64,000 bases of DNA from positions 1 through 64,000 of IMG/VR virus record IMGVR_UViG_3300027859_000890, one strand, 5' to 3'. Below are positions 5,391 through 59,965 of this stretch, piece by piece (position 1 is the first letter of the stretch; each line of letters starts with the position of its first letter). The DNA comes from a virus. The notes beneath the pieces were generated by a model. The model was not told the DNA's origin. It saw nothing but the letters and a program-made list of their open reading frames with translations, and made no database searches. Made by a program: the position numbers and the translations under genes.

Positions 5391-5989
5391 ACAAAATCCG
5401 ATACTAATTTATGAGCATTAGGTCCTGGATGTAATCCATCGTCTGCTCTATCATTTTTAACTAATAAATTTTCTACATTGTGTAATTTTGTGTAAAGATT
5501 TGTAGGTATCTTTTCAATTGTGTATTGATCATATGAATCATCACAATGTAAATTCACAACCTTTATATTTTGTTGCTGTAGGTGTAAGTTGGCTGTTTTG
5601 ATATATGTATATTCATCTATCATTGCATCTCTTTGACTACGTAACACATTCCATTTATACCAAGCTTCTGCTGCCTGTTTTGTTTGAGAATCTACTTCAT
5701 CATAATACATTTTGTGTTTGTGTATTAATAACTGATGTTTCTCAGTTTCAGTGTAAAGTAATGTTCTTGTCTTTGTATAGGTCCAAAGTATAACTACAAT
5801 GTCTTTAGGTTTGAAATTCTTTGATAAGATATAGTGCATTATTTGTTTATTGCTTGCACCACAAACTCCATAGTTGATAGCCCCAACCAATGCTGGCCAC
5901 GCACGTCTAGCAGGCGAGTCTGTTGTTATAGTACCATCTAAACCTAAACCAAATGTATTACTGCAACCAAATGCTATTAGCCTAGACAT
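5366..5989 (-). CDS. SGNH-hydrolase-like protein
   Basis: 207 residues with block [13 protein letters not shown] near residue 6, the conserved Asn-Gly segment [12 protein letters not shown], and block [12 protein letters not shown] near residue 190. It lies between hemA and another SGNH gene, overlapping both. It probably modifies a cell-surface or virion glycan by acyl transfer or removal; the substrate cannot be told. Confidence 0.6.
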
Positions 5990-7170
5990 TTTTTAACTGC
6001 CATTACGCACTCTTCTATCATAGCGTCAGTGTGAAGTGGAGTTGGAGCAAAACGGAGACGCTCCTCTCCCACAGCAACCGTTGGATAGTTGATTGGTTGA
6101 ACATAGATGCCGTGGTCATCTAATAAACAATCACTGATTGCTTTGCATACTTTGGCATCACGGATCATCACAGGAACGATATGAGTACAGGCTTTATCTA
6201 ATACTTCGACGCCAGCTTCAATCAATTTAGTTTTTAACTTCAATGCTTGAGCCTGATGCTGTTCGCGAAGTTCGTTGTGGTCTTTTAAATACTTTATACT
6301 GGCCAACGCTCCAGCACAAAGCACGGGCGACAGTGACGTAGTGAAAATAAATCCACTAGCCACGCTCCGGATAGCGTCTATGACGATGCTCTTGCCGGCG
6401 ATATAACCACCTGTAACGCCAAATGCCTTGCCGAGTGTTCCGTTAACAATATCAACTTTATCTTGAATACCTAGTTTTTCTAAGTACCCTGCTCCAGTGT
6501 CACCATACAATCCAACAGCGTGGACTTCATCAATATAAGTTATAGCACCGTAACGGTCAGCAAGATCGCAAATTGCTTCAATTGGGCTAACATCACCGTC
6601 CATACTATACACGGACTCGAATACAATGCAAGGGACTTGATTCCTAGTGGAAACTTCAACCAATTGTTGCTCTAATTGCTCCATATCATTGTGCTGCCAA
6701 ATTAACTTGTCAGCACCACTGTGTCGGATACCCTGTATGAGGCTTGCGTGATTCTTACTATCACTCAAAAACACAATGTTGGGAATGATTTTGCTTAAGG
6801 CAATTAGACTCCATTCATTTGCGACATAAGCACTCGAATACAAAAGAGCTTGTTCTTTGCAATGCAACTTACCAAGTTCCCATTCTAATGCTACGTGATA
6901 ATGCGATGTACCTCCGATGTTTCGTGTACCACCTGAACCAGCACCCGTTTGATCCAAAGCAGTATGCATCGCATCTATCACAACTTTTTGTTGCCCCATT
7001 CCAAGATAATCATTGCTACACCAATTTACAATATTTTTGATATTGTATTTGCCGTACCAAATTGCCTTAGGAAAGTCTCCTCGTTCTCGAACTATATCGT
7101 TGAAAACTCTATACTTGCCTTCTTGTTTTAGTTGGTTGATTACTTGTTCAAACGGGGTGTTATCTATCAT
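5977..7170 (-). CDS. hemA: 5-Aminolevulinate synthase (ALAS)
   Basis: 397 residues, full length for the PLP-dependent alpha-oxoamine synthase family. It condenses glycine and succinyl-CoA to 5-aminolevulinate, the first step of tetrapyrrole synthesis in alphaproteobacteria (Shemin pathway). Visible motifs are NDYLGMG, the Gly-rich [23 protein letters not shown] (PLP Asp), [13 protein letters not shown] (catalytic Lys) and the C-terminal INYPTV...[13 protein letters not shown] genes have been reported from marine phage sequences. Here it accompanies heme oxygenase and a bilin reductase at 50-52 kb and heme-requiring oxidase genes at 34-37 kb. A late promoter core precedes it. Confidence 0.93.
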
Positions 7171-28838: not shown

Positions 28839-29153
28839 CTAGAAATAATCCCCATACCCACTTCCATCATTAGAAGGGTAATAAGGATTATTAAAGTTTG
28901 GATCGTCCATTCCGTCTACAGCGGTAACTTCTGGAACAAAATGTTGAAGCATATTTTCAACACCCATTTTCAGTGTCATACTACTACTGGCACATCCACT
29001 GCAACCTCCTTGCAATAATACAAGCACACGACCTGATTCCATATCAAAGTCTTGTAGTTCAATCATACCACCGTGTCCTGCAACTGCTGGATTAATTTGT
29101 TCTTCGATTATACTGCTTATTTGTTTTACAATTTCTTCTTTAGTACGTTCCAT
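28839..29153 (-). CDS. NifU-C-terminal (Nfu-type) iron-sulfur carrier-like protein
   Basis: 104 residues from the ATG at 29153; the upstream extension of the frame runs back into the tRNA and is not used. It has the NifU C-terminal signature: INPAVAGHGGMIELQDF followed by LQGGCSGCASSSMTLKMGVE, with the C-x-x-C that carries a 4Fe-4S cluster. Nfu proteins deliver clusters to apo-enzymes. It may serve the phage radical-SAM protein. Third in a leftward unit after the synthetase core and the tRNA. Confidence 0.88.
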   Translation of the reverse strand: MERTKEEIVKQISSIIEEQINPAVAGHGGMIELQDFDMESGRVLVLLQGGCSGCASSSMTLKMGVENMLQHFVPEVTAVDGMDDPNFNNPYYPSNDGSGYGDYF

Positions 29154-29174: not shown

Positions 29175-29275
29175 TGGCTCCGGGGGGAGGATTCGAACCT
29201 CCACGGTAAATATATTGCAGTACATCTACCACACGATAAACAGTCGTGCGTGTCTACCATTTCCACCACCCCGGA
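29175..29275 (-). tRNA. Long-variable-arm tRNA with anticodon GUU (Asn codons)
   Basis: 101 bases including an encoded CCA. Acceptor TCCGGGG / CCCCGGA with discriminator G; D stem GTG / CAC with a Leu-like loop GAAATGGTAGA; anticodon stem CACGA / TCGTG with loop CTGTTTA, so anticodon GTT and a T at position 37. A 29-base variable region contains a seven-pair arm (GGTAGAT / ATTTACC, one G-T). T arm GGAGG-TTCGAAT-CCTCC. Normal tRNA-Asn is a short-arm tRNA; long arms belong to Leu, Ser and bacterial Tyr tRNAs. U1-A72 and G73 fit Asn. It lies five bases after the synthetase-like gene on the same strand. Confidence 0.9.
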
Positions 29276-29279
29276 TCAT

Positions 29280-30122
29280 TTATGCTGCCTGGGCTAAATC
29301 CTTTTGTTTGTCCAATGCAGCAATCATTCTTGTCATACCAATACCACCGCCTACTCTTTCAAAAAAATCAAACTTTAGAAACTCTTCTAGCTCTGCTTCT
29401 ACACGTTCTTTGCCAAATAATTCAAATAGTAAGTTACTGTATCCTCCATCTGTAATTGTATGGAATGTATGACGCATCATATCTATATCACAACTACGTT
29501 CTGCTGAGCCAATAGTTTCCATACCTCCTAGAATAACATCCATTTTCTTTGCAGTTAAGCCGTCATTGTTTCTACTCATATTCCAAAATGGTGATGTAAT
29601 TTCAGGAAAGTTAGTTATTAGAGTGCTGCCAAATTGAGATTCCATATCTAATTCGTGTTGGGCATCAAGTTCTTGACTATACTTTACACCAAAGTGCTCC
29701 TGCCATTCAGTGTAAGTCTTTTCTGTAAGTGCATCAAAACCCAAGTATTCACATAGTTCATACTCCATTGCTTTTAGGTCATCAACGGTGCCAGGAAATT
29801 CAAATTCAAACATAGGAAATATTATATCGTGTCTACCTGGTATTGCATTTGGTTCTTGTCTATAGGAAGTGCTGACACAAAAAAACCCCTTACTATCGGG
29901 GCTACTTAGTAATTCGTGTTCTAGCCACATCTGGCCTGTTTGCGGCAGTGGCCATACTTGGCCTGCATAATTATACGTTGCTACATTGAATGGATCTTCA
30001 CAAGCGGCAAGTATGCTTAATCTATTTTGAGTATGTACTTCTTGGAAACCTTTGTCCAAAAAAAATGACCTTAAAAGGCCAACTGTTTTCGTAAATTTTT
30101 CGGGTGATATTAGTTGCGTCAT
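29280..30122 (-). CDS. Class II aminoacyl-tRNA-synthetase catalytic core (Asn/Asp-type)
   Basis: 280 residues from the ATG at 30122 (AAGGAGA site). It has class II motif 2 in CVSTSYRQEPNAIPGRHD then FPMFEFEF near residues 90-115 and motif 3 in ERVGGGIGMTRMIAAL near the C-terminus, as in AsnRS, AspRS and asparagine synthetase A. The N-terminal OB-fold anticodon-binding domain of AsnRS/AspRS is missing, so it resembles synthetase-core paralogs (such as AsnA or AS-related proteins). The tRNA with anticodon GUU follows its stop by four bases. Either it charges that tRNA or it makes asparagine; sequence alone does not decide. Confidence 0.8.
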   Translation of the reverse strand: MTQLISPEKFTKTVGLLRSFFLDKGFQEVHTQNRLSILAACEDPFNVATYNYAGQVWPLPQTGQMWLEHELLSSPDSKGFFCVSTSYRQEPNAIPGRHDIIFPMFEFEFPGTVDDLKAMEYELCEYLGFDALTEKTYTEWQEHFGVKYSQELDAQHELDMESQFGSTLITNFPEITSPFWNMSRNNDGLTAKKMDVILGGMETIGSAERSCDIDMMRHTFHTITDGGYSNLLFELFGKERVEAELEEFLKFDFFERVGGGIGMTRMIAALDKQKDLAQAA

Positions 30123-30203
30123 CTTTTTCTCCTTTTTTGACCTAAAAAAAATATGTCCAGAAATTGCTGGATTCAATCTTAAACCAAGTTATTTATCAAA
30201 AGG

Positions 30204-30234
30204 TTGACAAAGTTTTATTTCAATGTTATAAATA
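30204..30234 (+). promoter_or_regulatory. tmRNA promoter, sigma70-like overlapping a late core
   Basis: TTGACA (30204-30209), 17-base spacer, TATAAA (30227-30232). The -10 lies within TATAAATA (30227-30234), so the same site could serve early and late. Gap 30123-30203 is otherwise the leader of the leftward synthetase gene. Confidence 0.85.
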
Positions 30235-30238
30235 GACT

Positions 30239-30556
30239 TGTTAGCGTTGAAGCAACGTGGACACATACTGGACCTCGGGGCGGTACCGAGCAGCTCCACC
30301 ATAAACATATGAGAGTAGATGCACCTACTTTCCTGTGCATAGGACAAGAGCTCGAAAGGCTACAAGTCGTATGTTTATGATGGGGCTGAACAAGGATCGA
30401 CAGGTGTGAAAGTGAAGTGGAGTTAGCCGGATGACTGCGTTATTGGTCAAATTACACAATTGCAAACGACAATCGTGCGCCAGCAATGGCACTTGCAGCC
30501 TAATTAGGTATGCGGGGTATTGAGTTCCACCTAGCAACAGAACGGGCTCACCATAA
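30239..30556 (+). ncRNA. ssrA: Two-piece (circularly permuted) tmRNA
   Basis: Acceptor piece about 30239-30301, ending AGCTCC-ACCA, comes first. An intervening segment follows, flanked by complementary TAAACATA and TATGTTTA. The coding piece then starts GGGGCTGAAC at 30382. The tag frame at 30462-30503 encodes A-NDNRAPAMALAA and stop, a typical alphaproteobacterial tag ending in ALAA. GGGGCT pairs with AGCTCC to rebuild the tRNA-like end. A pseudoknot-like region follows the tag; the exact 3' end is estimated. It rescues stalled ribosomes with SmpB and marks proteins for proteolysis; ClpS and Hsp20 genes lie at 49 kb. Confidence 0.92.
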
Positions 30557-30611
30557 AATATTGGTTGAAACATTTTTTAGTTAAAGAACAACCATTTTAG
30601 AAAGGAATCAA

Positions 30612-32576: not shown

Positions 32577-33002
32577 ATGACATATAGAACTAATGCAGAT
32601 TTATTTGAAGTAGGAGATTTTATAAGCCACGCAGGGTTACCATTGCCTTGGAAGATTGAGTGTGATGCTATACGACCTGAATGGTGGGATGGACTTGCCC
32701 GTATGGTTATGGATTACCAAACAAGACCATTTTACAAAGCAGTAGGCATTCCACGAGGCGGTATTCCGTTTGCACAAGCAATGAACAAATATGCAAGTGG
32801 TGATCCTAATGATCAAGTTATGATTTGTGACGATGTGTTTACTACAGGTACAAGTATGAAAGAATTCATTGAACAAGAATATCCAGATTGGACAATGGGT
32901 CAAGGATATCGTTGGGTTGTGTTTGCAAGGCAACCTAGCAATGTACATCCATATCACGTAAGAGCATTATTCACTATGCCAACAAAGCCAAGGGAAGAAT
33001 AA
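32577..33002 (+). CDS. Phosphoribosyltransferase-like protein
   Basis: 141 residues with the PRPP-binding signature VMICDDVFTTGTSM near residues 80-93 and an upstream GIPRGGIPFAQAM segment, as in type I PRTases (orotate, adenine or hypoxanthine type). It would join a nucleobase to PRPP to make a nucleotide. Its position between two 2OG dioxygenases and after a BMP-type binding protein suggests salvage of an oxidised base. Confidence 0.8.
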   Translation: MTYRTNADLFEVGDFISHAGLPLPWKIECDAIRPEWWDGLARMVMDYQTRPFYKAVGIPRGGIPFAQAMNKYASGDPNDQVMICDDVFTTGTSMKEFIEQEYPDWTMGQGYRWVVFARQPSNVHPYHVRALFTMPTKPREE

Positions 33003-33988: not shown

Positions 33989-34729
33989 ATGCAAGAACTT
34001 GAAATAGTCGGTGCTCCAAGAAGCGGAGCAATGGGCTTCCAGCCAGCAGCCACTAGCCTAGCGGAAGGCATCTTTGCACTTGATGCAATGCTACTGGTTA
34101 TAATTACAGCAATTAGTATATTTGTTACAGCGTTAATGATATACACATTTATACGCTACAACCGCAAGCGTAATCCAACACCAGCAACGTTTACACATAA
34201 TAGTCCAATAGAAGTAGCGTGGACAATTGTACCTGTGTTTATATTGTTGTTCATAGGTATGCTTACATTACCTGAACTATTTAGGCAACAGATTATACCA
34301 GAAGCAGATGTAAGAATAAAAGTTACAGGCTATAGTTGGTATTGGGGATATGAATACACAGACCACGATTTTGGCTTTGACAGTTATATGCTTGAAAAAG
34401 AACAACTTGCAGAATATGGTTATGACGATGAATACTATTTGTTAGCAACAGATACAGCAGTGGTTGTACCTGTAAACAAAACTGTGGTAATGAATATCAC
34501 AGGAGGCGATGTTATACATAGTTGGAAGATACCTGCGTTTGGAGTAATGCAAGATGCAGTGCCCGGCAGACTAGCACAGTTATGGTTCAAGCCTGAACGT
34601 GAAGGCATTTACTTTGGACAGTGTTCAGAACTATGTGGTAAGAATCACGCATATATGCCTATCACTGTTAAAGTTGTAAGTGAAGTAGAATATAATAAAT
34701 GGCTTGAATGGGCTGCCAATGAATATTAA
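33989..34729 (+). CDS. coxB: Cytochrome c oxidase subunit II
   Basis: 246 residues: two membrane helices (about 33-57 and 73-95) and a periplasmic CuA domain. The CuA site is intact: His in GGDVIHSWKIPAFG near residue 173, then FGQCSELCGKNHAYMPI with both Cys, Glu, His and Met near residues 208-220. The aromatic patch TGYSWYWGYEY for cytochrome c docking is present. It accepts electrons from cytochrome c or a blue-copper protein and passes them to subunit I. Unlike most alphaproteobacterial forms it has no obvious cleavable signal. It overlaps ctaG. Confidence 0.97.
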   Translation: MQELEIVGAPRSGAMGFQPAATSLAEGIFALDAMLLVIITAISIFVTALMIYTFIRYNRKRNPTPATFTHNSPIEVAWTIVPVFILLFIGMLTLPELFRQQIIPEADVRIKVTGYSWYWGYEYTDHDFGFDSYMLEKEQLAEYGYDDEYYLLATDTAVVVPVNKTVVMNITGGDVIHSWKIPAFGVMQDAVPGRLAQLWFKPEREGIYFGQCSELCGKNHAYMPITVKVVSEVEYNKWLEWAANEY

Positions 34730-35237
34730 ATTAGCATTGAAACTTGTTTTTATTGGAGTAGCAATGGGAGCATTGGCTTTTGCCAGTGTGCCATTTTATG
34801 ATTGGTTTTGTAGAACAACAGGATTTGGCGGAACACCACTTACAGCAGAAAGTGTAGAAGTAGAAGCATTGGATAAAACTATTACAGTTAGATTTGATGC
34901 AAACGTAGATTCAGACTTTCCTTGGTTGTTTTCACCAATGCAAAAGAAAATGGAAGTGCGTATAGGCGAATCAGAAATGGCTTTTTACCAAGTGCATAAT
35001 CCAACAGATGAAACAATGGCAGGCACTGCTACATTTAATGTAGTGCCTATGAGTGCAGGAGCATACTTTGTTAAGACAGAATGTTTTTGCTTTCAGCACC
35101 AAGAACTAGCACCTGGGCAGACAGAAGAAATGCCTGTTAGTTTTTATATAGATCCGGAGATATTAGAAGACAGAGAAACAGATTATCTTCAAACAATTAC
35201 ACTCAGTTACACATTTTATGAAAAGGATACACAATGA
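34719..35237 (+). CDS. ctaG: Cytochrome c oxidase assembly protein Cox11
   Basis: 172 residues from the ATG at 34719, overlapping coxB by 11 bases. One N-terminal anchor, then [31 protein letters not shown], and the copper-binding [16 protein letters not shown] with C-x-C-F. Cox11 delivers copper to the CuB site of subunit I. Its position between coxB and coxA is unusual; in alphaproteobacteria it normally lies between ctaB and coxC. Confidence 0.95.
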
Positions 35238-36892
35238 CAGACGCAACACACGATGAATATCAGTCAGGATGGTTCACTAGATGGTTTATGAGTACAAACC
35301 ATAAAGATATTGGAATATTGTATTTGATTACTGCTGCCGTTATAGGTTTTATCAGTGTGGCATTGACAGTTTATATGCGTATGGAACTTATGCAACCTGG
35401 TGTACAATTTATGTGCGATGAAGGCGCTAGACTTATTATAGACAGCAGTGAATGTACACCAAACGGACACTTGTGGAATGTTGTAATTACATCACACGGT
35501 ATCCTTATGATGTTTTTTGTGTTGATACCTGCACTGTTTGGAGGCTTTGGTAACTATTTTATGCCGTTGCAAATTGGTGCACCTGATATGGCTTTTCCTA
35601 GAATGAATAATTTAAGTTATTGGTTGTATGTTGCAGGTGTTACACTTGCTATTTGTAGTTTGTTTGTGCCAGGAGGCAGTGGACAAAACGGTGCTGGTGT
35701 AGGTTGGGTAATGTATCCACCGCTAAGTAGCACTGAAGGTGGTATGAGTATGGACCTAGCTATCTTTGCGTTGCACGTATCGGGCGTCAGCAGTATACTT
35801 GGTGCAATCAATATTATTACTACATTTTTGAATATGCGAGCACCTGGAATGACACTACACAAAGTTCCTTTGTTTGCTTGGAGTATATTTGTAACAGGTT
35901 GGTTAATACTGTTGAGTCTACCTGTGCTGGCAGGTGCAATTACAATGTTGCTTACAGATAGAAACTTTGGTACAACATTCTTTGATCCTGCAGGTGGCGG
36001 TGATCCTATATTGTATCAACACATATTTTGGTTCTTTGGACACCCAGAAGTTTACATTATTATTTTACCAGGCTTTGGATTGATATCACATATTGTTGCA
36101 ACGTTTTCACGTAAGCCTATTTTTGGTTACTTGCCAATGGTATATGCAATGGTTGCAATTGGTGCATTAGGTTTTGTTGTATGGGCTCACCATATGTATA
36201 CAGTTGGTTTGTCAGTTACACAACAATCATATTTTATGTTGGCAACAATGGTAATTGCTATACCAACAGGTATAAAAATCTTCAGCTGGGTAGCAACACT
36301 TTGGGGTGGTAGTATAGAATTTAAAACACCAATGCTATGGGCTTTAGGATTTATATTTTTGTTTACAGTAGGAGGCGTAACAGGTATTGTGCTTTCACAA
36401 TCACCAGTTGATAGAGCATATCACGACACTTATTATGTTGTGGCACACTTTCATTACGTTATGTCGCTAGGTGCTGCCTTCTCAGTGTTTGCTGGAATAT
36501 ATTATTATTGGGGTAAAATGACTGGTAGGATGTACAGTGAATGGATGGGCAAGTTACATTTTTGGATGATGTTTATTGGTTCAAACGTAACATTCTTTCC
36601 ACAGCATTTTTTAGGACGCCAAGGTATGCCAAGACGTTATATTGATTATCCAGAAGCATTTGCATTGTGGAACTATGTAAGCAGTTTGGGTGCGTTCTTA
36701 GCATTTGCAAGTTTCATATTGTTCTTTTGGATAATGGCACATAGTTTCTTTTTTGGCAGACGTATTACAGAAACTAATTATTGGAACGAGTATGCAGATA
36801 CATTAGAATGGACACTACCTTGCCCACCACCAGAACACACTTTTGAAATATTGCCAAAAAGAGAGGATTGGGACAAAAGTGCTACACATTAA
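35234..36892 (+). CDS. coxA: Cytochrome c oxidase subunit I (aa3-type)
   Basis: 552 residues, twelve membrane helices, starting in an ATGA overlap with ctaG. All key residues are visible: heme a His in [20 protein letters not shown]; CuB/active-site [15 protein letters not shown] with His, proton-gate Glu and the cross-linking Tyr; the His pair in AHHMYTVG; the K-channel Lys in [10 protein letters not shown]; heme ligands in [11 protein letters not shown]; and [11 protein letters not shown] with the D-channel Asp. It should reduce oxygen to water and pump protons. Length and motifs are complete. No subunit III, ctaA or ctaB is in the window. Confidence 0.97.
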
Positions 36893-49690: not shown

Positions 49691-50004
49691 TAGTTTTTAT
49701 AATTGGTTACCTAATAATGTTTTTTAATGAAGGATTCGTGATTATGCGTCACGTTAGTCCTTGGTTTGCAAAAAAACGCAGCCTGTTGCATCTAAAATTT
49801 GGTAGAGAAAGAGTAAAACGTATCCACGGACTTACAGATTGGACTTGGATAATTTTACTTGTGATAGGAGTATATTTAGATTTTGAGAATTGGAAAGTGT
49901 ACGCAGTGCTTGTGTTTGCTTTCTGGATAGTAGTAGCAGTAGGAGTGTATCTTCCTATGCTATATAGAAAAATAAGAAAACAGCCAACGGGATATGTAAA
50001 ATGA
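49687..50004 (+). CDS. Three-helix membrane protein, unknown
   Basis: 105 residues; helices near 2-20, 55-70 and 76-93, with a basic loop between (RHVSPWFAKKR; FGRERVKRIHGL). It links clpS and heme oxygenase by ATGA joints. The paired His/Arg loop residues might bind a cofactor, but no family is recognised. Confidence 0.6.
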   Translation: MIVFIIGYLIMFFNEGFVIMRHVSPWFAKKRSLLHLKFGRERVKRIHGLTDWTWIILLVIGVYLDFENWKVYAVLVFAFWIVVAVGVYLPMLYRKIRKQPTGYVK

Positions 50005-50534
50005 GTAAATTAAAAGAGCTTACCTGGGAAAATCACCAAAATGCAGAACGTACTGCATTCGCTAGAAGATTAATGGGAGGTATTACACCAGAAGAATATC
50101 ACACATATCTTTATAATCAGTTTTTGATTTATGGTTCACTTGAATCATTAACTAATCTTGAAGGCATAGAAGATATACGTAGAACAAAGCGTATTGGTAT
50201 TGACTTAAAAGAGTTAGAAAAAACACAAGGACTTAAACGTACCAAAGAACAGTTACAACCTAGTGCATTAGATTATATAAATTATTTGCCAACACTTGAT
50301 AACGATGAATTAATGGCACACATATATGTAAGACACTTTGGCGATATGTATGGCGGGCAAATGATTAAAAAACGTTTAGACTTTACCAGCGGCACAATGT
50401 ATGACTTTGACAATGTTGAAGATCTTAAAACGAAAGTCCGTTCAATGGTAGGTGAAGATATGGCAGACGAAGCAAACATTTGTTTTAAGTATGCCGCAAA
50501 GTTATTCGAAGAGCTCAATAACGTGTATGCCTAA
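50001..50534 (+). CDS. Heme oxygenase
   Basis: 177 residues, all-helical HO fold. The proximal heme His is in LTWENHQNAERTAF near residue 12, and the distal Gly-rich helix in VRHFGDMYGGQMIKKRL near residue 115. It splits heme to biliverdin, CO and iron using ferredoxin. The gene for a ferredoxin-dependent bilin reductase lies one gene downstream, so the product is probably a bilin rather than only iron. Confidence 0.88.
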   Translation: MSKLKELTWENHQNAERTAFARRLMGGITPEEYHTYLYNQFLIYGSLESLTNLEGIEDIRRTKRIGIDLKELEKTQGLKRTKEQLQPSALDYINYLPTLDNDELMAHIYVRHFGDMYGGQMIKKRLDFTSGTMYDFDNVEDLKTKVRSMVGEDMADEANICFKYAAKLFEELNNVYA

Positions 50535-57919: not shown

Positions 57920-59965
57920 ATGAGGAAAATATTGTTTTCGCCGTTATGGAGCCTTTTGGTGTTAGGTGTCCTATCGTATTTGTTTTATCTAAATCCAGCA
58001 TTTATTGAAAGCATTAGATTAAGATACTTTGACCAGCTAATTGTAAACCAAGAACCAGTAGAAAATAATATATATGCAGTAAACATTGACGAAGCTACTA
58101 TAGACAAATACGGACAATGGCCTTTTCCAAGAGCCGACTACGGAGACTTAATTATAGACCTGTACAATCGTGGTGCAGGTTTAGTTGTTTTTAATGTCCT
58201 AATGAGCGAAACAGATCGCAGTGGAGAAGATGAAATACTTGCATTGACAATGCAGCAACTACCAGTTATAATTACAATGTTAGGTGCAGAGGAGAATAAA
58301 AATGAACCAATTAATCCAGGTGCTACTATCGTTAACAGCGATTACATTTATCTTATACCTAGTGTTCCGGGTATTATTGCAAACGTTCCGGATATCGAAA
58401 ATAACGCCGTTGGATCAGGCATCACGAACAGCTGGCCGGAAATCGACGGAGTTACTAGACGCATACCGTTGGTGGTAGAAAGTGGAGGCACATTATATCC
58501 AAATGTTACTATGGAAGTTCTGCGTGTCATAGCAGGAGACCCTAGTTTTCAAATAAAACTATCACCACTAGGCGTTGATAAATTACGAATACCACAATTT
58601 GGCACAATACAAACATCACCCACAGGCGAAGTATGGGTTGATTGGAGTCAAAAATTTAAGAATGTAAGTGCAGTAGATTTGCCAGATGACTTTGCTGGCG
58701 GCATAGTTTTTGTAGGACCTACAGCCGCTGGTGTAACACAACCGCTTGCAACAGCAACAGGCAGTGTGTTTCCTCATCAAATACAGGCAGCAATGCTTGG
58801 TACAGTTTTTAATGAATCAAATATAAGCAGACATCCTGATGCAGAACAGTGGGCTGAATTAGCAGCTCTTATCACAGCAGGTATATTGTTAATCGTACTC
58901 GCCCGTTGGACTTATGTAGGCATAGCCTTTTTTGTATTGTCCGTGGGCGGGTTTACAGGAGTTAGCATTTATGTTTTCAATACACAAAATATTCTTATTG
59001 ATGGTGCTACTATAAGTGCTTTTCTATTACTTGTTGGCTTACAAAGATACGTCCTTAAATTCATAGATGAGTTTTTACAAAAGCAAGCAATCAAAAAACA
59101 ATTTGAAGGATATGCATCACCAACTGTCGTTAAACTATTACAAGAGTCTCCAGAGCTTGTTAAACAAGGTATAAAGAAAGATGTAAGTATTGTTTTTTCA
59201 GACTTGCGTGGCTTTACACCATTAGGTGAATCATTTGGCGATGATGTGCAAGGGCTAACAAGAATAATGAATGGCTATATGGATGCAATAACAAAACCTG
59301 TGCTAGATGCAGATGGTATGATTATAAAGTATATAGGCGATGCTAGTATGCACATACACAATGCGCCAATAGATGATGTTAAACACGCACATACTGCCGT
59401 AGAAACAGGGCTAAATATGTTGCGAGCAGTAGAGGACTTCAATAAAAATGTTATTATACCAGAGGGACGGCCGGCAGTTGGTATGGGCGCTGGGATCAAT
59501 ACTGGTCTTGGCTACATTGGTGAAATGGGTAGCACTAAGCGTCATAGTTATGACGTCCTTGGAGATGCTGTCAGCACAGCGGCAAGAGTCGAAAGTAAAT
59601 GTAAAGAATATGGATGCCTCTTACTTGTTGGAGAAAACACATATGAAGCAACCAAAGATGATTTCTTCTACCTTAAAGTAGACGACTTACAAGTTAAAGG
59701 TAAATCAGTAGGATTAGGCATTTACACAGTTTTAGATCGTACTGTGCCTGCTTGGAAAGTACCGCAACGCAAACATCAACAAATGCACATAGCATACCAA
59801 GCACAAGATTTTGACGAAGCTATACGTTTGTGTAAAACAGTTTACACAAGTTTTGATCATAGAATGGAAAAATACTATGATATGTGGATTGAACGCTGTG
59901 AGTATATGAAAACACAAGATTTGCCTCAAGATTGGAATGGTGTATTCATAGCAACAAGTAAGTAA
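57920..59965 (+). CDS. CHASE2-domain adenylate cyclase
   Basis: 681 residues: one N-terminal membrane helix, a periplasmic CHASE2 domain (about 35-300: RYFDQLIVNQEP, NIYAVNIDEATIDKYGQWP, VVFNVLMSE), three helices (about 310-375), then a class III cyclase domain (about 410-600). Cyclase residues: SIVFSDLRGFTPLGE (metal Asp), IIKYIGDASMHIHN (Lys and second Asp), and HSYDVLGDAVSTAAR, whose Lys/Asp pair favours ATP. It should make cAMP in response to an envelope signal. CHASE2 cyclases are often encoded beside FecR proteins, as here. Confidence 0.92.
   Translation: MRKILFSPLWSLLVLGVLSYLFYLNPAFIESIRLRYFDQLIVNQEPVENNIYAVNIDEATIDKYGQWPFPRADYGDLIIDLYNRGAGLVVFNVLMSETDRSGEDEILALTMQQLPVIITMLGAEENKNEPINPGATIVNSDYIYLIPSVPGIIANVPDIENNAVGSGITNSWPEIDGVTRRIPLVVESGGTLYPNVTMEVLRVIAGDPSFQIKLSPLGVDKLRIPQFGTIQTSPTGEVWVDWSQKFKNVSAVDLPDDFAGGIVFVGPTAAGVTQPLATATGSVFPHQIQAAMLGTVFNESNISRHPDAEQWAELAALITAGILLIVLARWTYVGIAFFVLSVGGFTGVSIYVFNTQNILIDGATISAFLLLVGLQRYVLKFIDEFLQKQAIKKQFEGYASPTVVKLLQESPELVKQGIKKDVSIVFSDLRGFTPLGESFGDDVQGLTRIMNGYMDAITKPVLDADGMIIKYIGDASMHIHNAPIDDVKHAHTAVETGLNMLRAVEDFNKNVIIPEGRPAVGMGAGINTGLGYIGEMGSTKRHSYDVLGDAVSTAARVESKCKEYGCLLLVGENTYEATKDDFFYLKVDDLQVKGKSVGLGIYTVLDRTVPAWKVPQRKHQQMHIAYQAQDFDEAIRLCKTVYTSFDHRMEKYYDMWIERCEYMKTQDLPQDWNGVFIATSK

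Follow-up and report, generated by a model that had tools for sequence, protein, structure and literature searches.

A minimal AsnRS-like protein and an adjoining GUU tRNA form a candidate dedicated pair in marine phages

In marine T4-like phages, a gene for a minimal class II protein resembling AsnRS and a gene for an unusual asparagine-type tRNA form an obligate unit, a pairing supported by searches started from either gene. We favour, at somewhat better than even confidence, the reading that the two act as one functional unit in which the phage-borne synthetase would charge its dedicated tRNA with asparagine, the charged tRNA presumably being used in decoding. The pair was found in a window of 64,000 nucleotides (the whole stretch of DNA analysed here), which covers positions 1 to 64,000 of the IMG/VR record IMGVR_UViG_3300027859_000890. 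An earlier first-pass annotation, made from the letters of the window, had spoken of a phage, correctly so because the record is a 134-kb virus; the record also carries NrdA (PHROG) and a tmRNA. Coordinates are collected in the table.

Table. Positions in the window of the synthetase gene, its partner tRNA and neighbouring features.
Feature	Position	Strand	Evidence or remark
Mini class II synthetase core	29280..30122	-	AsnRS-like catalytic domain of 280 aa (coordinates include the stop codon); no anticodon-binding domain
Start codon ATG of the synthetase ORF	30120-30122	-	
AAGGAG, likely ribosome binding site (synthetase gene)	30129..30134	-	Sequence inspection
Partner tRNA	29175..29275	-	GUU anticodon, 98 nt plus encoded CCA, Leu-like body, 10-bp variable arm; RF00005, 48.1 bits
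Anticodon GUU	29239..29241	-	Loop CUGUUUA, U37 in place of a purine
Variable arm	29205..29230	-	10-bp stem, predicted fold; loop GCAA invariant among long-arm relatives
5' half of acceptor stem UCCGGGG (U1)	29269..29275	-	Pairs with 29179-29185
G73	29178	-	
CCA	29175-29177	-	
Small PyrE-like phosphoribosyltransferase	32577..33002	+	Weak PF00156 and NF002620 matches; tblastn relatives
NifU-like domain protein	28842-29153	-	6.5e-24
Permuted alphaproteobacterial-type tmRNA	30189-30594	+	Tag ANDNRAPAMALAA
cox2, ctaG/cox11, cox1 (consecutive)	33989-36892	+	PF00116 1e-45, PF04442 2e-56, PF00115 9e-159
Aminotransferase-fold protein resembling ALA synthase	5977-7170	-	
Heme oxygenase	50001-50534	+	
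CHASE2 plus adenylate/guanylate cyclase protein	57920-59965	+	

The first-pass annotation had described a class II Asn/Asp-type core lacking the anticodon-binding domain, and the protein bears this out. It matches PF00152 (tRNA synthetases class II D, K, N; 2.6e-15) and PHROG_29758 (function unknown; 4e-127), begins at the catalytic core and ends just past motif 3. The N-terminal OB-fold is absent, as is the C-terminal strand that follows motif 3 (NIRDxxPFPR in AsnRS), and the OB-fold anticodon-binding domain is missing from the AlphaFold2 model too (pLDDT 89, pTM 0.87). Class II motifs 1-3 are present, and the motif 2 and motif 3 arginines R88 and R265 are conserved with their neighbours in phages and cells. 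When the model was searched with Foldseek, AsnRS structures came nearest, the top match being T. thermophilus AsnRS with Asn-AMS (an Asn-adenylate analogue).

In the AspRS and AsnRS families, a few pocket positions set the specificity for Asn versus Asp. The mini-synthetase motif QTGQMWLE fits the SGQLxxE of AsnRS and not the SPQLxKQ of AspRS: G63, Q64, L67 and E68 stand where AspRS has P, Q, K and Q, with L67 and E68 invariant across the mini-synthetase family, in which the AspRS pocket Lys/Gln was not found and the E202/R209 pair (the E/R pair for Asn) is retained. The data support a predicted pocket that fits Asn. The same positions bear on a non-discriminating, AspRS-like step, in which the tRNA would be charged with Asp and subsequently amidated by host GatCAB. 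The Lys that serves the Asp side chain in AspRS is here an invariant Leu and the Gln a Glu, and phages of the cyanobacterial as well as the alphaproteobacterial type carry the pairs; we therefore rate such a step as quite improbable, even though U1-A72, the bacterial tRNA-Asn signal for GatCAB, is nearly invariant in the partner tRNA.

Despite the AsnRS-like motifs, pocket, E/R pair and predicted fold, the protein is no ordinary AsnRS. It falls under every curated AsnRS/AspRS cut-off (at best 26.1 bits for a cut-off of 353), and its cellular relatives also score below. In a class IIb tree the mini-synthetases form a single clade on the AspRS/AsnRS side, with a very long branch of 4.2 changes per column leading to it, and their sister grouping with AsnRS is weak (support 88/62).

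Truncation and size also recall archaeal AS-AR, an AsnRS paralogue that lacks the anticodon-binding domain and makes Asn from Asp (about 290 aa, compared with 280 aa here). The first-pass annotation had offered an asparagine synthetase-like protein as its alternative; a tRNA-Asn companion would then raise Asn use. The likeness in architecture stands, the predicted fold is similar (3rex, TM 0.68/0.66, at rank 50), and asnA was found in 0 of 20 carrier genomes. The alternative is nevertheless weakened by the AsnRS-type pocket, by asnB in 9 of the 20 carrier genomes, and by a score of 17.6 bits against the NCBIfam asparagine synthetase A model NF005055 (cut-off 389); it also leaves the strict adjacency to a single unusual tRNA in phages unexplained. 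We consider it improbable.

The other half of the arrangement, a GUU long-arm tRNA beginning four bases past the synthetase stop on the same strand, was likewise described correctly in the first pass: the 10-bp stem and the RF00005 match are both there. ARAGORN labels this gene 'tRNA-Asp (atc)', an artefact of the long arm; the anticodon is GUU because the covariation-supported cloverleaf places CUGUUUA in the anticodon loop. Covariation extends to all five helices (27 long-arm relatives), with 15 pairs altered on both sides compared to 8.2 in shuffles, 3 of the 15 lying in the variable arm.

Conservation was assessed on 171 distinct predicted downstream tRNAs, including deeper marine lineages from two further searches; a few of these are misparsed and one member is an ordinary tRNA-Leu. 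Of the 171, 169 have U1-A72, 170 have G73 and 165 have the anticodon GUU, a single one carrying GUC. Variable regions are 4 to 39 nt long. Genes of the pelagi type encode CCA, which those of the cyano type do not have. In four loci of one subclade, the partner tRNA has a long variable region and the anticodon GUC (Asp) in place of GUU, which counts against a dedicated Asn pair. The acceptor end (U1-A72, G73) is the only constant feature of the body, while the remaining body, variable arm and loop flanks vary. The first pass had proposed recognition through the long arm or the acceptor. A long arm that is not universal cannot be a general recognition element and was ruled out as such, whereas the conservation of the acceptor end agrees with the second suggestion.

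The anticodon loop behaves in an unusual manner. Almost all tRNAs have U33 and a purine at 37, and a purine stands at 37 in 118 of 120 other tRNAs of the same loci. In the partner tRNAs, A33, C33 or G33 occurs in some lineages, and the minimum numbers of changes on the synthetase tree (a quick search, mainly viral) are 18 and 17 for positions 33 and 37, compared to 0, 0 and 1 for positions 34, 35 and 36. Because the anticodon is nearly unchanged while its flanks change often, the anticodon is read or recognised, and U33 and R37 are not maintained.

A fixed G34-U35 together with the loss of the anticodon-binding domain might suggest a GluQRS-like activity, which would attach an amino acid to one base of the GUN anticodon in the adjacent tRNA rather than to its 3' end. 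We find this very improbable: the acceptor end is conserved as much as the anticodon, and U33, the loss of which would block queuosine insertion, has been lost in several lineages.

To examine the pairing, we searched IMG/VR with the window protein (561 relatives confirmed) and with the P-SSM7 protein (at least 600), and inspected the best 80 loci from each search plus phage records. Among viral loci that offered 110 nt or more of downstream sequence, the first 160 were scored, and in 154 of them a GUU tRNA adjoins the synthetase gene: 147 have a parsed GUU tRNA, and in seven it was recognised by eye in the aligned sequences. The remaining loci are two short fragments and four of huge-phage type. 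Most partner tRNAs start 4-12 nt past the synthetase stop, in different genomic contexts, and in one clade the distance is mostly 57-226 nt. Conversely, among the listed matches to DNA patterns built from the tRNA alone, 205 tRNAs are preceded by 250 nt or more of sequence, and in every one of these 205 cases the synthetase gene lies directly upstream. As many contigs recur across searches, these counts are samples and not censuses. In P-SSM7 and P-SSM5 the gene adjoins an annotated tRNA-Asn. The first-pass annotation had allowed for pairing by chance. Phage tRNAs do cluster, and hitch-hiking in a tRNA array could place the two genes together, but the reciprocal scans, far above chance, with their tight spacing in varied contexts, refute this explanation and leave it a negligible probability.

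Co-occurrence of the two genes, which the first pass had suggested checking, is the rule in the main viral clade. Outside it, widespread homologs without the tRNA, which the first pass had named as evidence against a pair, do occur in cells, huge phages and a minority of viral lineages, some of them deeper. A tree of 150 cellular and viral rows (a quick search) gathers the proteins with a linked tRNA in a single clade that is itself surrounded by cellular branches; L172-L174 belong to this clade and have no tRNA. A larger, mainly viral tree implies several tRNA losses, some of which are parsing failures. At locus L173 (about 5858-5890), only an acceptor-stem remnant follows the synthetase stop (TCCGGGG-TCCCCCGGAGCCA), which could reflect a deletion, an assembly error or a minihelix substrate. 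In a viral copy without the tRNA (L676), the position usually held by the tRNA, right behind the synthetase gene, is taken by the PyrE-like gene. Of two huge-phage proteins used as queries, one yielded no further pairs and the other two loci, both without the tRNA; a GUU long-arm tRNA elsewhere in huge phages was not found, LR756508 carrying an ordinary tRNA-Asn. Within the main phage clade, a functional coupling of enzyme and tRNA is about as certain as sequence can make it.

Aminoacylation would be the natural reading of this coupling, and the conserved acceptor end supports it. More specifically, the mini-synthetase would bind asparagine and ATP to form asparaginyl-adenylate and would then transfer Asn to the partner tRNA, which in turn would read AAC/AAU codons during infection. 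Recognition would lie mainly at the acceptor end (U1-A72, G73), because the enzyme has no anticodon-binding domain and neither the body nor the variable arm is conserved. Since such an enzyme need not inspect the anticodon loop, positions 33 and 37 and the tRNA body would be free to change, and may even be selected to do so in order to escape host tRNases or host synthetases. Aminoacylation, the choice of Asn, a role in translation and evasion as its reason are what the gene pair suggests to us. Decoding is less certain because of U37 and the repeated loss of U33: U37 and, in some lineages, A33, C33 or G33 should impair decoding, which counts against a decoding pair. As for host enzymes, G73 would argue against charging of the partner tRNA by LeuRS, and host SerRS may charge it. 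Asn accounts for 5.0% of codons, with an AAC share of 0.40, in the window ORFs alone and without host comparison, which is unremarkable. Because the synthetase almost always lies directly beside the odd asparagine-type tRNA, these phages probably run a private channel for one amino acid.

A natural orthogonal pair of comparable layout is PylRS/tRNA-Pyl, in which a synthetase without anticodon recognition is encoded beside an unusual tRNA. The present pair shares the missing anticodon recognition domain and the adjoining odd tRNA; it differs in that it would read a sense codon family, probably with a standard amino acid. Synthetases and tRNAs of huge phages have been reported as related to host enzymes (PMC7162821); they are likewise phage-encoded translation genes, whereas the mini core has no anticodon-binding domain, and no tRNA adjoins the genes of its huge-phage relatives. 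Loop mutations in phage tRNAs have also been proposed as a means of escaping anticodon nucleases (PMC10264068). As in that proposal, the partner tRNA keeps its anticodon and alters the flanking loop bases, and these changes may be linked to nuclease escape, but it is accompanied by a synthetase of its own and deviates at both U33 and R37. In the open-licence PMC literature, we found no description of the synthetase-tRNA pair, only 'tRNA ligase' annotations of cyanophages. One of these, T4-GC 194 of P-SSM2/P-SSM7, is listed as a sporadic host-like gene (PMC3037559); it belongs to the mini-synthetase family, and no pairing with a tRNA is described in the passages found.

A challenge to a dedicated pair comes from relatives that have no such tRNA. 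A GTDB scan gave 105 relatives, of which the best 80 were inspected. With a few apparently viral contigs in MAGs set apart, no partner tRNA accompanies the relatives, 48-61% identical, in Patescibacteria, Midichloriaceae, Pasteurella atlantica, Dependentiae, Chlamydiota and DPANN archaea. Taken over bacteria, archaea and huge phages, the relatives without the tRNA are 45-61% identical. The catalytic residues are common to the phage proteins and to the relatives without the tRNA, and such essentially identical conserved residues in cells and huge phages would argue against a dedicated pair.

Several of the cellular genes lie in pyrimidine operons. The gene order is mini-pyrF-PRT-pyrD in Midichloriaceae and a Rhodospirillaceae MAG; in P. 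atlantica, mini-pyrF-PRT lies beside pyrD; and Parcubacteria have either pyrD-pyrE-pyrF-lyase-mini-amidohydrolase or pyrE-amidohydrolase-argH-mini. These neighbourhoods were taken from fragments, and MAG contigs may be misbinned. Seven cellular loci in our set place the mini-synthetase in pyrimidine operons, most of the carriers being without ATCase, and the Parcubacteria operons combine it with argH and a cytosine-deaminase-like amidohydrolase. Scores over cut-off were absent for ATCase from 22 of 24 carrier genomes tested, for CarB from 18 of 20 and for pyrC_multi from 20 of 20; such absences are weak evidence because most carriers are incomplete reduced-genome MAGs. In some phages, as in pyr operons of cells, relatives of the PyrE-like protein of the window are encoded beside the mini-synthetase, and some phages carry PyrE-like or PyrD-like genes.

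Because the relatives without the tRNA have the same catalytic residues and several lie in pyrimidine operons, metabolic use is a live rival: the enzyme may be primarily an Asn- (or Asp-like) activating ligase for pyrimidine synthesis, with the phage tRNA serving as substrate, carrier or regulator and not in decoding. The operons, the missing pathway genes, the shared catalytic residues, the pyr-type genes of some phages and the loss of U33 and R37 in the partner tRNA all agree with it. We still think it unlikely. The pathway may in any case be missing from most carriers, which are reduced-genome MAGs, and P. atlantica has a second, canonical OMP decarboxylase. Furthermore, the tRNA is near-universal in the phages whereas pyr genes are sporadic (a PyrE-like gene flanks 23 of 270 phage loci), and a non-decoding tRNA should not hold its anticodon while positions 33 and 37 drift. 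The absence of pyr genes near the cyanophage pairs counts for a dedicated pair.

If the enzyme is metabolic, a speculative route would lead from arginine and fumarate to argininosuccinate, followed by ring closure on the activated beta-carboxylate and release of ornithine to give dihydroorotate. A wider scenario, to which we give little credence for now, would join both lines of evidence: a new Asn-activating class II family might serve cells in an alternative dihydroorotate route (without CarAB, ATCase or standard dihydroorotase), and marine phages might have captured it and coupled it to a tRNA that breaks the U33/purine-37 rule, which would give them either a decoding channel of their own for Asn or a metabolic step that depends on a tRNA.

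The surroundings of the pair in the window include further genes. Immediately past the 3' end of the tRNA, on its strand, lies the gene for a NifU-like domain protein. The tmRNA and the synthetase gene are divergently oriented; according to ARAGORN, eight further viral loci carry a tmRNA, in most cases just upstream of the synthetase gene. The consecutive cox genes are a possible phage-borne cytochrome c oxidase module. The window also encodes a heme oxygenase, a CHASE2 cyclase protein and a protein resembling ALA synthase; phage AlaS genes have been described (PMC11480375).

A partner tRNA in which position 33 may be A, C or G and position 37 may be U challenges the requirements for a decoding tRNA. 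The cellular relatives, for their part, suggest that an enzyme not yet described is encoded next to pyrimidine genes, in genomes most of which have no ATCase. If the pair charges, hundreds of IMG/VR contigs would hold a natural compact (280-aa) synthetase-tRNA unit that could be a scaffold for engineering. It would likewise be a test case for why phages carry tRNAs, as the phage would supply the enzyme too.
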